The notes under the pieces are model-generated. The model worked only from the letters and a program-made list of their open reading frames with translations, made no database searches and was not told the origin of the DNA. A stretch of DNA of 53,826 nucleotides. It comes from Clostridiales bacterium (GTDB taxonomy: Bacteria > Bacillota > Clostridia > Peptostreptococcales > Anaerovoracaceae). Location: positions 1 through 53,826 of the forward strand of contig JALFNS010000032.1 of the NCBI GenBank assembly GCA_022773945.1, written 5' to 3'. The position numbers and the translations under genes are program-made. This document shows, piece by piece, positions 8,125 through 17,812 of the stretch. Position 1 is the first letter of the stretch. Each line of letters starts with the position of its first letter.

Positions 8125-8963
8125 AGAATCACCTCCCCGTGTCTGCATACGTGGCAGTTGATATTCACCGCCACAGGAAGTCCCGCTATATGTGTCGGCG
8201 CCGCCAGAACATTCACTTTGAGCGCAGTAGTCCTGCCGCCGAATCCCTGAGGTCCGATTCCCAGAGAGTTGATTCTCTCCAGAAGCTCCTCCTCCATATC
8301 TCTGTAGTATTCATCCTCGCTGCTTCTGTCCAGCGGTCTCAGAAGCGCCTTCTTGGCCATGAGAGCCGCCTTGTCGAAATTGCCCCCTATGCCGACCCCC
8401 ACAACTATCGGAGGGCATGGATTGGCCCCTGCCTTTCTGCTGGTTTCAACAACAAAATCCTTGACGCCTTCTTCTCCCGCCGAAGGAGGAAGCATTGCTA
8501 TCCTGCTCATATTCTCCGAACCGAAGCCCTTTGGCGCCACGGTGATCTTCACGTTGTTTCCCGGAACAAGCTCCCAGTATATTGCCGCCGGAGTGTTGTC
8601 TCCCGTGTTGACGCGTCTGAGAGGATCCGCCACTATTGATTTCCTGAGATAGGCTTCTTCGTATGCAGCACGGACGCCCCTGTTGACAGCGTCCTCTGCC
8701 GATCCGCCTTCAATAACGACGCCCTGGCCTATTTCAAGAAAGACACATGCCATTCCCGTATCCTGACACAGAGGATATTCTCCCTCGGCGGCTATCTCAA
8801 TGTTCTCTTCAATGGAAGCGAGCACATCCTCGGCCACCGGCCAGGTTTCCCTGAGCCGGCAGCTGTGAATGCACTCTCTGACATCATTTCCAAGTATGTA
8901 GTTCGTATCTGTGCAGAGCTTCCTGACTGCATTTTCTATTTCCTTCACATTAAGAATCTTCAT
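8121..8963 (-). CDS. fumA: Fumarate hydratase class I, alpha subunit
   Basis: N-terminal subunit of the oxygen-sensitive [4Fe-4S] class I fumarase. The 280-aa product contains the three cysteine contexts expected for cluster binding: PLCQDTG, ANPCPPIVVGVGIGGN and NINCHVCRHGEVIL. It also has the GRTTALKVNVL stretch of this family. The ATG overlaps the argH stop codon by 1 bp and the gene overlaps fumB by 4 bp, so argH-fumA-fumB are expected to be one coupled unit. L-tartrate dehydratase is a close relative and cannot be fully excluded, but the argH context favours fumarase. Confidence 0.9.
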   Translation of the reverse strand: MKILNVKEIENAVRKLCTDTNYILGNDVRECIHSCRLRETWPVAEDVLASIEENIEIAAEGEYPLCQDTGMACVFLEIGQGVVIEGGSAEDAVNRGVRAAYEEAYLRKSIVADPLRRVNTGDNTPAAIYWELVPGNNVKITVAPKGFGSENMSRIAMLPPSAGEEGVKDFVVETSRKAGANPCPPIVVGVGIGGNFDKAALMAKKALLRPLDRSSEDEYYRDMEEELLERINSLGIGPQGFGGRTTALKVNVLAAPTHIAGLPVAVNINCHVCRHGEVIL

Positions 8964-10330
8964 CAGTTTTCTCCGCTTATATCCTTCAGCTGTTTTCTCA
9001 CACTGTCGAAGGATGTGGATCCTTCGGACTTCTTGGCCCTGATGCAGTTGACCACATCTATGGCCTCATATATATCCTCCTCAAAGGCCGGCGAGAAGGA
9101 TTTGAACTCTTCCATGGTGAGCTCATCCAGCGCCTTGCCCTCATTGATGCAGTATAGAACCATGTTGCCTATTATGCTGTGACAGTCTCTGAAAGGGATT
9201 CCCTTCGACACGAGGTAATCCGCCGCATCGGTGGCATTCATGTAGCCGTATCTGGCCGCACTTCTCATGCTATCCTTCTTCACAGTCATGGTGGAAATCA
9301 TCTCTCTGAAAATTCCCAGGGAAGCCTTCAGCGTATCCGCTGCATCGAATACAGGCTCCTTATCCTCCTGAAGGTCCTTGTTGTATGCCATCGGGAGGCC
9401 TTTGCACACTGTGAAGAGAGCCATCATGTCTCCGTATACTCTGCCCGTCTTGCCCCTTATGAGCTCTGCCATATCAGGGTTCTTCTTCTGCGGCATTATG
9501 CTGCTGCCTGTTGAATAGGCATCATCCATCTCTATGAATCCGAATTCCACGGAGCTCCAGTTAATGAGCTCCTCGCAAAATCTGGAAAGGTGCATCATCG
9601 TCACGGAAACGCAGCTGAGAAATTCCAGAGCGAAGTCTCTGTCCGCCACGGCATCCATGCCGTTAGGAAGAACCGAATCGAAATCCAGCTTCCCGGCCAG
9701 GAACTGCCTGTCAGTGTTGTACGTGGTTCCTGCCAGAGCCCCGCTTCCCAGAGGCAGTCTGTTTATACGCTTCCTGCAGTCGGCGAAACGCTCCCTGTCT
9801 CTGCTGAACATGTTGTAGTATGCCAGCAGGTGATAAGCCAGAGTAACCGGCTGTGCTCTCTGGAGATGTGTGTATCCCGGCATAACCGTCTCCACATGCT
9901 CCTCGGCCAGCTTCTTCAGTGTTTCCATAAGCTCCTTCAGCAGCACATCAATCTCATCGGTTTCCTTCCTGAGGTAAAGACGGAAATCCACTGCCACCTG
10001 ATCGTTTCTGCTTCTGGCTGTGTGAAGCTTTTTGCCTGTGCTTCCGATTCTCTCCGTGAGAAGGGTCTCTATATTCATGTGGATGTCTTCACCCTCGACA
10101 GTGAACTCCACCTTGCCGTCTTCTATGTCCTTAAGGATCTCCTTCAGCGTTTTCACTATGAGAGCGGACTCCTCGGTACTGATAATTCCCTGTCTGCCCA
10201 GCATCTCCGCGTGTGCGATGCTTCCGGTTATGTCCTCTCTGTACAATCGCCTGTCAAATCCTATTGATGCATTAAACTCATCAGCCGATGTGGCTGAATC
10301 CTTCGAAAATCTGCCTTTCCAGAGTTTCAT
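8963..10330 (-). CDS. argH: Argininosuccinate lyase
   Basis: Cleaves argininosuccinate to arginine and fumarate. The 455-aa product is canonical: MKLWKGRFS at the start, HTARSRNDQ with the substrate-contacting Arg108, MPGYTHLQRAQP with the catalytic His, the superfamily signature TGSSIMPQKKNPD, and YNKDLQEDKEP. It lies 30 bp after carB and overlaps fumA by 1 bp. A second, divergent paralog is encoded at 16466-17812; this copy has every residue expected for normal activity and is the likely biosynthetic enzyme. Confidence 0.96.
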   Translation of the reverse strand: MKLWKGRFSKDSATSADEFNASIGFDRRLYREDITGSIAHAEMLGRQGIISTEESALIVKTLKEILKDIEDGKVEFTVEGEDIHMNIETLLTERIGSTGKKLHTARSRNDQVAVDFRLYLRKETDEIDVLLKELMETLKKLAEEHVETVMPGYTHLQRAQPVTLAYHLLAYYNMFSRDRERFADCRKRINRLPLGSGALAGTTYNTDRQFLAGKLDFDSVLPNGMDAVADRDFALEFLSCVSVTMMHLSRFCEELINWSSVEFGFIEMDDAYSTGSSIMPQKKNPDMAELIRGKTGRVYGDMMALFTVCKGLPMAYNKDLQEDKEPVFDAADTLKASLGIFREMISTMTVKKDSMRSAARYGYMNATDAADYLVSKGIPFRDCHSIIGNMVLYCINEGKALDELTMEEFKSFSPAFEEDIYEAIDVVNCIRAKKSEGSTSFDSVRKQLKDISGEN

Positions 10331-15085: not shown

Positions 15086-15333
15086 GTATGGTGTAAACCA
15101 CGTCTCATACAACGGGTAACGAAGGTGTTTGCAGCTTAGTCCTCATCGCTGCAGATTATAAATGCTCATTCATAGAGAACAGAATCTCAGGCAAACTCGC
15201 GAACTACGTTCGCTTCAGACAGTGCCTGAGATTTAGCTGTTCTCTTATTTCATTTCGCATATAATCTGATCAGCTCTTGCGGAAGCAGCCGCAAACACCT
15301 TCGCTGCCCGTTAATGACTGAGGTTTACTATAC
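15086..15333 (+). repeat. Long structured hairpin element, copy 1
   Basis: An extended imperfect palindrome drawn here on the plus strand. Helices, outside in: outer arm 15086-15099 with 15322-15333 (imperfect); P1 15111-15132 with 15291-15312 (22 bp, one wobble, one mismatch); P2 15152-15165 with 15257-15268 (8+4 bp, AA bulge); P3a 15175-15182 with 15237-15244; P3b 15183-15193 with 15223-15233 (11 bp); P4 15199-15204 with 15208-15213, 3-nt loop. The internal-loop strands (GCTTAGTCCTCATCGCTG; ATCAGCTCTTGCGGAA) are almost unchanged in copy 2. No T-tract follows. It may be a structured RNA, a cruciform-forming DNA site or a MITE-like element; orientation of transcription is unknown. Confidence 0.75.
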
Positions 15334-15419
15334 ATGATTATATCAACGCTGAAGCATGGCTTGACTTCCTGGACAAGGGCGGCACTAAAACACGGACAAT
15401 ACTTGGAAAAAAGGGTTAA
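15318..15419 (+). pseudogene. Possible 3' fragment of a lost gene
   Basis: An open stretch with no start codon begins at the edge of copy 1 and reads IHDYINAEAWLDFLDKGG then TKTRTILGKKG before TAA at 15417-15419. The composition looks protein-like but no family is recognised. It may be the tail of a gene truncated when the hairpin element arrived. Weakly supported. Confidence 0.25.
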
Positions 15420-15430
15420 GCAAAAATGCG

Positions 15431-15459
15431 TTTTTATTGATGCCGAATCGTTGTATAAT
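15431..15459 (+). promoter_or_regulatory. Possible promoter of the small island gene
   Basis: TTTTTA (15431-15436), 17-bp spacer, perfect TATAAT (15454-15459), about 75 bp before the small gene at 15533. The -35 match is poor. Confidence 0.45.
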
Positions 15460-15532
15460 AATAACGAATTTCAACGGTTATTAGGATATATCAACACGGC
15501 TGAAAGCAAACAAAAGAAAGGTGCGTCAGGGC

Positions 15533-15742
15533 ATGCTAGGTGATTTTTACAAAAACAATCCAAAGGACAAAATCTGGTGGGTTGATGACCTGGATTCAGT
15601 TGGGCAGTTCCTTTTTAGCTTTGATAAAAACACCATATACAATCTGTTTGCAGATTATCCGCACAAACTTACACCAGAACAGAAAAAGATATTTGATGAA
15701 GAAAATCCATATTGGGTAGAATTCTTCAAAGACAGGCAGTAA
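15533..15742 (+). CDS. Small conserved-looking hypothetical protein (69 aa)
   Basis: A 69-aa acidic, aromatic-rich soluble protein beginning MLGDFYKNNPKDKIWWVDD, with FLFSFDKNTIYNLF in the middle and DEENPYWVEFFKD at the end. The look (FYKNNPKDKIWW, YPHKLTPEQKKIFDEENPYW) recalls small uncharacterised Firmicute proteins; I cannot assign a function. The ATG at 15533 has AAAGGTG upstream; a GTG at 15521 is an alternative. It has its own promoter-like sequence and a good terminator, which supports a real gene. It is the only convincing gene inside the hairpin-bounded island and is on the opposite strand to the flanking arginine genes. Confidence 0.65.
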   Translation: MLGDFYKNNPKDKIWWVDDLDSVGQFLFSFDKNTIYNLFADYPHKLTPEQKKIFDEENPYWVEFFKDRQ

Positions 15743-15771
15743 AGCACTCCGCACTCACAGGGTGCTTTTTT
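15743..15771 (+). terminator. Terminator of the small island gene
   Basis: Stem AGCACTC (15743-15749) / GGGTGCT (15760-15766), 7 bp with one G-U pair, 10-nt loop, followed by TTTTTT. It starts at the base after the stop codon. Confidence 0.75.
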
Positions 15772-15912
15772 AGTGCAGAAAAGATAAAGATATGACAAGT
15801 AACGACACGAAACTGATTATCTACAATATACTCCAGGCATTTCCAGTTATACTTAATTCACATCTTCGATTCCTGTCATAATCCTTTAATAACCATTAAT
15901 ATTCCTGACCTA

Positions 15913-16183
15913 TTCCTGACAAAATAACTAAATTCGCCCTCCATGTTGTCAGAATATTGGGTTAGGGTCGACTATGTTCTGACAAGAACCTTTTTATATC
16001 GTATGGCTTTGTCAGAATTATTGCCTGCACTGATCATGTCACACTTACTATTCTCTTCCCAAACCTCTTACCTGCAAGAATTCCTGACAAAGCATGCTCA
16101 GATTTACCTGTTCTTGTCAGAAAAACCTTTGATAAAGACAACGAGTCTGACAAGAAAATTCTCTGGGAGAAGTTTTTGTCAGA
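15913..16183. repeat. Array of TTGTCAGAA 9-mers in alternating orientation
   Basis: Eight sites. TTC(C)TGACAA at 15913, 15977, 16081 and 16146 alternates with TTGTCAGA(A) at 15946, 16009, 16114 and 16176. Start-to-start spacing is 33, 31, 32, 72, 33, 32 and 30 bp. The sequences between sites are 22-23 nt long in six of seven intervals (63 in one) and unrelated to each other. Degenerate extra sites may exist at 15873 and 15902. Any two neighbours can pair as a hairpin. No gene is seen between 15772 and 16221 besides this array. Function unknown. Confidence 0.7.
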
Positions 16184-16221
16184 CTCAGGGTCAAAATACA
16201 TTATTTTCCATCGACTTTGAT

Positions 16222-16455
16222 TGAGCCGTCGTCAACAAGGAGATAGCGGAAGTGATTGCGGCTGTTTCCGCAAGAGCTGATCAGATCATATGCGAAATAA
16301 AATAAGAGAACAGCTAAATCCCGGGAACTGTTTGAGCGAGCGAAGCTCGCGAGTTTTCCCGGGATTCTGTTCTCTATGAATGAGCATTTATGATCTGCAG
16401 CGATGAGGACTAAGCCGAAATTACTTCCGCTGTTTTCTCAGTTGACTGCGGCTCA
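16222..16455 (-). repeat. Long structured hairpin element, copy 2 (inverted)
   Basis: Inverted relative to copy 1 and with the same architecture. Outer arm TGAGCCG (16222-16228) plus GTCAAC (16231-16236) pairs with 16441-16446 and 16449-16455. P1 is 16245-16263 with 16413-16431; P2 16282-16293 with 16384-16397; P3a 16306-16313 with 16367-16374; P3b 16317-16327 with 16356-16366; P4 16336-16341 with 16345-16350. The inner 150 nt is nearly identical to copy 1 except for compensated pairs in P2, P3b and P4. P1 and the outer arms are different sequences from copy 1 yet still self-complementary. It begins 10 bp after the argH2 stop codon. Confidence 0.75.
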
Positions 16456-16465
16456 CATCATATCG

Positions 16466-17812
16466 CTATTTTCTCTTTTTCCTGCTCTTCTTAATTTCCT
16501 CAAGCTGTTCATCCACGCTGGTGAAGGATGTGGAGCCTTTGGAGCGCTTGGACTCGATTACGTTTCTGATGGCGATCTCGTCGTAGACGTCGCTGTCGAA
16601 CTTCTGCGAGAAAGTCCTGATATCGTCAAGCCACAGCTCTTCAACTGCCGAATCCTTGTTAATAGCGTAGGCGATAACCTTGCTTACTATGTCAGGTATG
16701 TCCTCAAGCTTCACGCCTTTGTCCATGAGATAAGTGGATAGCTCGGTGGCGTTCATGTAGCCGTACTTGGCTGCCTTCTGCATTTCTCCTCTGTTGATTT
16801 TGATGGTTTTGATCATTTCAACGAAGAGAGCCAGTGAGCTTTCAAGGGTGTTGGCCGCATCCAGGACAGCATGCTTATCCTCCTGCATGTCTCTGTTGTA
16901 GGCCATAGGAAGTCCCTTGAACACTGTCAGCAGGTTCATGAGGTCTCCGTACACTCTTCCTGTCTTACCTCTTATGAGCTCAGCCACATCGAGGTTTTTC
17001 TTCTGCGGCATCATTCTGCTGCCCGTTGTGAATTCATCGGCTATTTCGATGAATCCGAACTCCACGGAGCTCCAGAGTATCAGATCCTCACAGAACCTTG
17101 AGAGATGCATCATGGTGATGGCGCAGCATCCGGTGAATTCCATAGCGAAATCTCTGTCGGAGATTGCATCCATGGCATTAGGAAGCATGGACGCAAAGCC
17201 CAGCTCCTTCATCATCTCACTTCTGTCCGTATCCCACATTGTCCCTGCCAGCGCTCCGCTGTCAGGAGGCATCATATCAATGGTTTTGATACAGTTCTCG
17301 AACCTGACTCTGTCCCTTCTGAACATCTGGTAGTAGGCGAGCAGGTGATATGCCAGCGTTATAGGCTGTGCCCTCTGCAGATGGGAGTAGCCCGGCATTA
17401 TCGTGTTCCTGTGCTCGATCGCCAGTGCCTCCAGCGTGTCGAGAAGATCATCGATCATGTTTATGCAGGAAACCGCCTCCTTCTTGAGATACAGCCTTGA
17501 GTCCATAACCACCTGGTCGTTGACGCTTCTGGCCGTATGAAGCTTCCTTCCTGTTTCGCCGATTTTCTCCACGAGGAGATTCTCTATATACTCGTGAATG
17601 TCCTCCGCATCTGTATCAAAGCCTGTTTTTCCCGAGGATATGTCTTCATCAATTTCCTTCAGTGCTTCTATTATCTGTTCCGATTCCTCAGCAGTTATCA
17701 GCTGGTGCTTGGCCAGCATTCTGCTGTGGGCTATACTGCAGATGATTTCCTCGTGATAAAGGATATTATCATCTCTGATTGAAGCCATGAACTCTTTAGC
17801 ACTCAGTATCAT
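16466..17812 (-). CDS. Divergent argininosuccinate lyase paralog in ADI operon
   Basis: Member of the argininosuccinate lyase/fumarase superfamily (448 aa). It aligns throughout with the canonical ArgH at 8963-10330 but lacks the N-terminal WKGRF segment. It differs at conserved positions: HTARSVNDQ has Val97 where ArgH has the substrate-contacting Arg, the signature reads TGSRMMPQKKNLD (Arg266 for the second Ser, Leu274 for Pro), GYSHLQ replaces GYTHLQ, and YNRDMQEDKHA replaces the usual LQEDKEP. The catalytic His144 and the first loop Ser265 are kept. It is the last gene of arcB-arcA-arcC-argH2, 21 bp after arcC. It may act on a modified substrate, be weak, or be regulatory. Confidence 0.85.
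   Translation of the reverse strand: MILSAKEFMASIRDDNILYHEEIICSIAHSRMLAKHQLITAEESEQIIEALKEIDEDISSGKTGFDTDAEDIHEYIENLLVEKIGETGRKLHTARSVNDQVVMDSRLYLKKEAVSCINMIDDLLDTLEALAIEHRNTIMPGYSHLQRAQPITLAYHLLAYYQMFRRDRVRFENCIKTIDMMPPDSGALAGTMWDTDRSEMMKELGFASMLPNAMDAISDRDFAMEFTGCCAITMMHLSRFCEDLILWSSVEFGFIEIADEFTTGSRMMPQKKNLDVAELIRGKTGRVYGDLMNLLTVFKGLPMAYNRDMQEDKHAVLDAANTLESSLALFVEMIKTIKINRGEMQKAAKYGYMNATELSTYLMDKGVKLEDIPDIVSKVIAYAINKDSAVEELWLDDIRTFSQKFDSDVYDEIAIRNVIESKRSKGSTSFTSVDEQLEEIKKSRKKRK

Follow-up and report, generated by a model that had tools for sequence, protein, structure and literature searches.

A family of long near-palindromic DNA elements lies behind genes in the window, by which we mean the whole 53,826-nucleotide stretch of a Clostridiales bacterium contig that was analyzed, and in related genomes. 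The elements keep their internal loops, pair almost purely by Watson-Crick pairs, and are present in some genomes and absent from others at an orthologous locus, where one element shares a terminator helix with the element-free site of four relatives. We lean, somewhat beyond an even chance, toward reading them as dispersed DNA elements that combine a terminator tip, conserved loops and locus-private arms and whose pairing would be maintained at the DNA level.

The window contains two copies of the element, copy 1 at positions 15086 to 15336 on the forward strand and copy 2 at 16212 to 16465 on the reverse strand. Each was predicted to fold as a rod, in which the core of copy 1 is enclosed by self-complementary outer arms and the 5′ arm of copy 2 adjoins the argH stop codon. 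A sequence-only reading had proposed two inverted hairpins with a common core at these places, and its proposal was borne out by two inverted blocks, with 86% complementarity over 95 nt and 89% over 91 nt, and by a core of 90% identity over 154 nt; the rods extend slightly past the ends that it had given. Covariance-model (CM) matches covered 15133 to 15287 of copy 1 (168 bits) and 16263 to 16416 of copy 2 (179 bits), and the folds had z scores of −10.2 and −9.85, respectively, with 0 of 200 shuffles as good in either case. The compensatory changes reported by the same reading were also seen in the alignment of the two copies, namely, CAGATTAT/ATAATCTG versus CAGATCAT/ATGATCTG, GCGAAC/GTTCGC versus GCGAGC/GCTCGC, and three changed pairs in the apical helix. 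Within copy 1, one conserved strand of the outer internal loop occupies 15138 to 15149 (AGTCCTCATCGC; family form GTCCTCGTCGC) and its partner occupies 15273 to 15284 (GCTCTTGCGGAA; family form GCTCCTGCGGAA), both on the forward strand and both located by the alignment (A5 set) and a DNA pattern scan. The apical helix of copy 1 and its flanking A/T-rich strands span 15182 to 15234 (forward strand; fold and alignment) and include the conserved apical loop strands AAACTCG and TCAGACA; we read this terminator-like apex as a putative terminator by reference to orthologous loci. The fold of copy 2 placed the corresponding apical helix and A/T-rich strands at 16317 to 16365 on the reverse strand. 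The complementary strand folded somewhat better in both copies (−120.9 versus −111.2 kcal/mol for copy 1 and −130.5 versus −118.6 kcal/mol for copy 2).

The two copies belong to a real repeat family, as had been suspected: a covariance model built from 8 copies gave 35 matches at an E value of ≤0.1 in the genome of the window, some of them partial or of a shorter subfamily, and a blastn search with the core as the query located 12 sites there. Among a relatives set of 61 genomes, CM matches were found in 24 of the 37 genomes of the genus and in 0 of the 24 from other families of the order. Of 297 genomes drawn from the order, 20 matched at an E value of 1e-4; 19 of these came from the window's own family (genera g1, g21, g23, and g48), and the remaining one, a weak match, lay outside it. 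The elements thus reach further genera of the window's family, [Eubacterium] minutum (G061; record CP016202) among them. One of the 19 genomes, G328, has its matches at coordinates identical to those in the E. minutum record, which NCBI assigns to Anaerovoracaceae, so that this is very probably the family of the window. A degenerate DNA pattern consisting of GTCCTCGTCGC, 105 to 135 bases, and GCTCCTGCGGAA matched 72 stretches of genome contigs, mostly MAGs titled Bacillota, Clostridiales, or Eubacterium, and viral contigs gave 0 matches to the core pattern. Pattern matches in Variovorax (one), Eisenbacteria, Nitrospira, and Saccharofermentans were set aside as chance, as their folds were unlike this rod (4 of 21 folded loci), and the Saccharofermentans genome gave 0 CM matches. 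Rfam likewise returned no match at the gathering cutoff in the window, as had been anticipated, or in 11 loci of other carriers, and a permissive search returned chance-level matches only. 6S RNA, a likeness that had been raised and doubted from the start, did not appear at either threshold. Literature searches yielded no description or name that we recognized as this hairpin family. We conclude that this is a real and sizeable repeat family whose nearest kind is the REP/REPIN/BIME-type intergenic palindromes together with terminator-forming repeats.

The element is about 230 to 280 bp long. Among 103 aligned copies, the best-conserved unpaired stretches were GTCCTCgTCGC, CTcatTCacA, AGAA, AAACTCG, cTCAaACA, TTTtgCTaTT, TTCGttTCG, and GCTCCTGCGGA, in which some letters are in fact paired. 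Averaged across the whole alignment, the top-base frequency was the same for unpaired (0.735) and paired (0.745) positions, and the paired ones vary in concert. Read on the complementary strand, the internal loops are Py-GA-Pu at both sides, the context in which tandem sheared G-A pairs form. At the tip, an A-rich and a T-rich strand flank a helix. A shorter, GC-richer subfamily in the window's own genome (L119 to L130) has the same outer loop and a different inner helix, and the A/T-flanked tip was absent from the three members folded. Tips also occurred alone (L005, L011, L125, and L115:5389), and the L125 tip is letter identical to that of L010. Moreover, two copies in E. minutum, L205 and L221, lie inside the middle of another copy (L205 was folded), and L230 is perhaps nested in the same way.

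The outer arms were described at the outset as unrelated between the two copies yet pairing with themselves, and this property extends to the family. The mean pairing score of 103 copies was 18.4 for a copy's own arms and 3.3 for swapped arms, and the own-arm score exceeded the 99th percentile of swapped pairs in 89 of the 103. In the best 88 of 107 alignment rows, the others being partial or of the shorter subfamily, the arms had a mean length of 47 nt and were 77% complementary, with mismatches comprising 127 GU and 197 AC; two L003 rows that duplicated L111 had been dropped. At one locus in two species (L093 and L110), the far arm includes a complement of the final codons and stop codon of the adjacent gene, which in each species fits that species' own version, and the far arm of L102 complements the neighboring gene end imperfectly. 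We rejected the idea that arms are insertion targets copied in inverted form: orthologs, like the E. minutum copies, have arms that are conserved in part, and hence no copying at insertion is required.

Functional RNA is conventionally proved by covariation, and covariation in this family was very strong. In 107 distinct rows, the covariation score was 0.513, versus 0.184 for shuffled and at most 0.076 for slid alignments; both sides had changed in 38 of 41 pairs, 94% of cells were paired, and changes on one side alone were few. A functional RNA strand should also show a clear excess of G-U wobbles over A-C mismatches, and RNase P RNA from 30 genomes of the genus, counted on the same footing, gave 93 GU and 8 AC, with 0.45 GU per double change. 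The rods, in contrast, gave 44 GU and 76 AC (0.05 GU per double change) and, on the complementary strand, 76 GU and 44 AC (0.08), where pairs whose commonest Watson-Crick pair was below 30% were left out of the counts. Counting by transcribed strand at tandem-gene sites (23 sense and 18 antisense copies by a nearest-ORF rule; one mainly G-U pair left out) gave 27 GU versus 21 AC. Thus, wobbles did not clearly outnumber A-C mismatches on either strand, as they should in a structured RNA, and the strongest point in favor of an RNA is the mild GU excess on the complementary strand. The early claim of a conserved folded structure, whether RNA or DNA, holds as to structure; between its two options, the evidence favors DNA, or both strands, since wobbles are as rare as A-C mismatches irrespective of which strand is transcribed. 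Because a clear GU excess would be expected of a functional RNA strand, we infer that pairing is kept or made either at the DNA level or on the two strands together, and the former seems somewhat more likely. Maintenance at the DNA level could occur by template switching between arms, by replacement with other copies, or by selection on a folded strand.

The elements are placed preferentially between converging genes. Among junctions of ORFs of at least 100 amino acids, 41 of 69 with an element were convergent, 28 were tandem, and none was divergent, whereas the 210 other junctions of the same loci comprised 21 convergent, 142 tandem, and 47 divergent (Fisher P of 8e-16 for convergent and 5e-7 for divergent). 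A cruder count with ORFs from 70 amino acids gave 55 convergent and 5 divergent junctions of 107, and copy 1 of the window itself sits at a divergent junction if the 69-amino-acid DUF7675 gene is counted. At convergent junctions, 36 of 44 elements had the sense orientation relative to the nearer gene, and tandem junctions held 16 sense and 15 antisense elements. The inverted arrangement of two copies, first pointed out in the window, recurs: close pairs were ordered plus then minus in 12 of 12 cases in the A5 set, three of which are one locus in three species, and in 14 of 15 cases among CM matches in the own genome and the relatives set. Close pairs of the same orientation were seen three times in other genera of the family (G220 twice and G080 once) and once in G028.

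In the window, the neighbors of the copies are argG and argH, with the DUF7675 gene (69 amino acids; positions 15533 to 15742, forward strand; Pfam) between the copies. Copy 2 lies at the 3′ end of argH, which encodes argininosuccinate lyase (16466 to 17812, reverse strand; Pfam PF00206 and PF14698). The argH homologs of three other species in the genus also have an element behind them, with upstream-flank matches of 69 to 72% (L050, L094, and L071). By eye, a terminator-like hairpin follows the DUF7675 gene near 15743 to 15773. Positions 15912 to 16190 hold several inverted copies of a word resembling CCTGACAAAG/CTTTGTCAGG, which also occurs in the flanks of L006 and L007, and such words may represent another small repeat family. 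Two argH-like genes lie within 8 kb (8963 to 10330 and 16466 to 17812) beside argG, and ORFs in the vicinity look like those for arginine deiminase, carbamate kinase, and the large chain of a carbamoyl-phosphate synthase.

One convergent gene pair showed both states of an element-bearing site. The element was present in G004, G078, G035, G071, and G014 and partly present in G031, and it was missing in G008, G021, G007, G077, G017, G026, G076, G034, G016, and G013; the locus in G020 was visible only to the contig end, and G033 and G072 differed in arrangement. At the orthologous locus, G072 (L306) has a large nested palindrome of a different kind, in which the words CCTACCATA/TATGGTAGG recur. 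Element-free sites carry a short hairpin of A-tract, stem, and T-tract that resembles a bidirectional terminator. In G008, G020, G021, and G077 this hairpin was AACCCGGAG-loop-CTCCGGGTTT, and the element that G014 carries here has the same helix as its apex. When 9 genomes were searched for exact matches, the helix occurred only one to three times per genome in G008, G014, G020, G021, and G077. Across the family, the apex has the form of an intrinsic terminator, with a GC-rich stem between A and T tracts (consensus AGAAcccC...GgggTTTt) and a short T run of 3 to 5 after the tip. The apex thus looks like a putative bidirectional intrinsic terminator. The element may have grown around a shared terminator or decayed to it; flank identities among G008, G014, and G071 were mixed.

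Comparison of orthologous loci indicated how the elements change. All 34 comparisons with two good flanks, each flank aligned over more than 130 nt and three comparisons with shorter upstream matches left out, gave 166 double changes from one Watson-Crick pair to another, 76 one-sided changes, and 9 other double changes in 1,394 cells, and these comparisons are not independent. A set of 18 hand-picked comparisons gave 43 such double and 37 one-sided changes. There were 7 double versus 31 one-sided changes in 14 comparisons among G008, G014, and G071 and 28 double versus 10 one-sided changes in 4 comparisons of G004 with G078. Because the comparisons fall into two regimes, they suggest single-step drift combined with possible whole-copy replacement: nearly identical copies drift by single steps, and some loci change many pairs together, as copy replacement or template switching would do. 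Many of the double changes may reflect whole-copy replacement or reinsertion rather than switching within a hairpin. One-sided changes that touched a Watson-Crick pair in the hand-picked comparisons produced 9 GU, 16 AC, and 10 other combinations, such that GU was not favored.

Arm homogenization and spacer inversion are given as marks of template switching in passages of PMC8604942 and also of PMC8794818. The orthologs L085 and L319 have identical left arms, and the right arm of L319 is the exact complement over 23 nt, whereas that of L085 has 4 clustered differences in the same stretch. L066 and L069 occupy the same locus with the element in opposite orientations, and their flanks are 87% identical.

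One alternative is that the rods are overgrown but ordinary bidirectional intrinsic terminators. Both strands would be transcribed from the converging genes, and because a G-U pair on one strand is an A-C mismatch on the other, selection on both RNAs would forbid wobbles. Such terminators would account for the convergent junctions, the terminator-like apex, and the rarity of GU and AC alike. We nonetheless consider them an unlikely explanation, as tandem-gene sites, where transcription from one side is expected, were equally devoid of wobble preference (27 GU and 21 AC), rods of 230 to 280 nt with internal loops conserved across genera are unnecessary for termination, and the inner helix of the shorter subfamily lacked an A/T-flanked tip in the three members folded. 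A new structured-RNA family, either a 3′ untranslated region element or a small RNA under selection for RNA pairing, appears improbable. Very strong covariation, conserved loops, and the 36 of 44 elements sense to the nearer gene at convergent junctions agree with an RNA, as does the complementary strand, which folds better, has more GU than AC (76:44), and would form tandem G-A pairs in its loops. Wobble, however, was hardly favored on either strand when set beside a true RNA of the same genomes, the 16 sense and 15 antisense elements at tandem sites show no such bias, and the arms are private to each locus. Several points count against the DNA elements that we favor: selection on RNA from both strands, as in a bidirectional terminator, likewise predicts few wobbles, and the sense bias at convergent junctions is not required of a purely symmetric DNA element. 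The two regimes among the orthologous comparisons, the divergent junction of copy 1 when the DUF7675 gene is counted, and the short T run after the tip weigh on the same side.

The rods might instead be nonautonomous, MITE-like elements moved in trans by a transposase, with the hairpin as recognition signal and the paired changes as the product of bursts of diverged subfamilies, and we regard this as possible though not likely. A MITE harbors most of the 14 copies found in E. minutum, and its ends match an insertion sequence of 1.5 kb that encodes a UPF0236 protein (L406; E. minutum 781.6 to 783.7 kb; ends AAGTTTTTGTGGAGTTTT/AAATAATTGTGGAGTTTT); inspection of the E. minutum ends established no target-site duplication. 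Moreover, 32 of 88 copies, including 13 of 13 in G000, had their nearest core within their own genome, and both the nested copies and the presence or absence at one locus are consistent with movement. Outside E. minutum, however, the flanks of 88 copies from the window's genus showed no shared terminal inverted repeats or common ends, and conservation is lowest at the outer ends, which a transposase would be expected to read. There were 126 same-genome flank matches, and those that could be placed were a copy's own arms, overlapping windows of paired elements, neighboring elements, or isolated similarities, such as that between L010 and L114 (226 nt at 73%). The transposase family searched was Y1 (PF01797). 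Of 11 carrier genomes, 5 had it and 6 lacked it, namely, G014, G022, G023, G031, E. minutum, and G000, the last of which is rich in copies. That absence weighs further against a MITE-like element, and it makes a REPIN-type element of a RAYT (REP-associated Y1 transposase) very improbable unless the transposase went undetected, as all six genomes have copies; assignment to REP/REPIN via a RAYT was accordingly rejected, even though passages of PMC3116915 describe REPIN hairpins in which conserved segments accompany compensated spacers.

Under the reading that we favor, that of dispersed DNA elements with pairing kept at the DNA level, long near-palindromic elements would sit just behind genes, chiefly between converging genes, and the tip would act as a bidirectional intrinsic terminator that ends transcription of both neighbors. 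Outward from the tip, short conserved internal loops would give way to arms of about 25 to 50 bp whose sequence is private to the locus. Upkeep may come from template switching between arms during replication, whereby one arm is copied from the other and the middle is sometimes flipped. Alternatively, the element could be replaced by another copy, or selection could act on the folded single strand. Because template switching by itself would wipe out the internal loops, selection must also act. The loops, tandem Py-GA-Pu on one strand, may persist because they are required by a protein or by the folded strand, or because without them the palindrome could become perfect. A bolder proposal, which is tentative and which we judge rather unlikely, makes the DNA fold itself the unit of heredity: locus-specific arms would drift freely and be rewritten by template switching, tandem G-A loops would be kept by selection because a host or selfish factor recognizes the folded single strand, not an RNA, and helices would be nested, such that the tip of one element could enclose further elements and terminators.

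BIMEs are dispersed extragenic palindromes that form hairpins. Like these, the REP/REPIN palindromes of Proteobacteria, as portrayed in parts of PMC3116915, resemble the present family in being dispersed, extragenic, and hairpin forming, with conserved segments and compensated variable ones. A GTAG or CGTC tag beside a palindrome of 20 to 40 bp is a defining mark of REP/REPIN (PMC3733652). Unlike these, the present family consists of 230- to 280-bp rods with several conserved internal loops, a terminator-like apex, and locus-private arms, and it occurs without a Y1 transposase in 6 of 11 carriers. Uptake-signal pairs of Neisseria and Pasteurellaceae are likewise a dispersed repeat co-opted as a terminator in tail-to-tail regions, according to passages of PMC1852404, but they are two copies of a 9- to 11-nt word, whereas the present family is one long structured element. 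MITEs are similarly short, noncoding, and present in many copies, and the rods of E. minutum are literally inside one, although copies in the window's genus show no shared terminal repeats in the flanks of 88 copies. Hairpins attributed to template switching in rRNA stems and yeast inverted repeats share arm homogenization, multibase compensations, and spacer inversion with the family, as set out in parts of PMC8794818 and PMC8604942. Those cases lie in single genes, whereas the family is a dispersed bacterial repeat with conserved loops, for which switching is one reading among several.

More than 100 aligned copies with textbook covariation fail the wobble test, which is a warning against taking covariation as proof of RNA. 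Counting G-U pairs against A-C mismatches beside a known RNA of the same genomes provides a simple control for RNA discovery pipelines. Moreover, dozens of loci in related species offer a natural system in which to test the upkeep of hairpins by template switching, in a repeat that carries or captures terminator-like tips.
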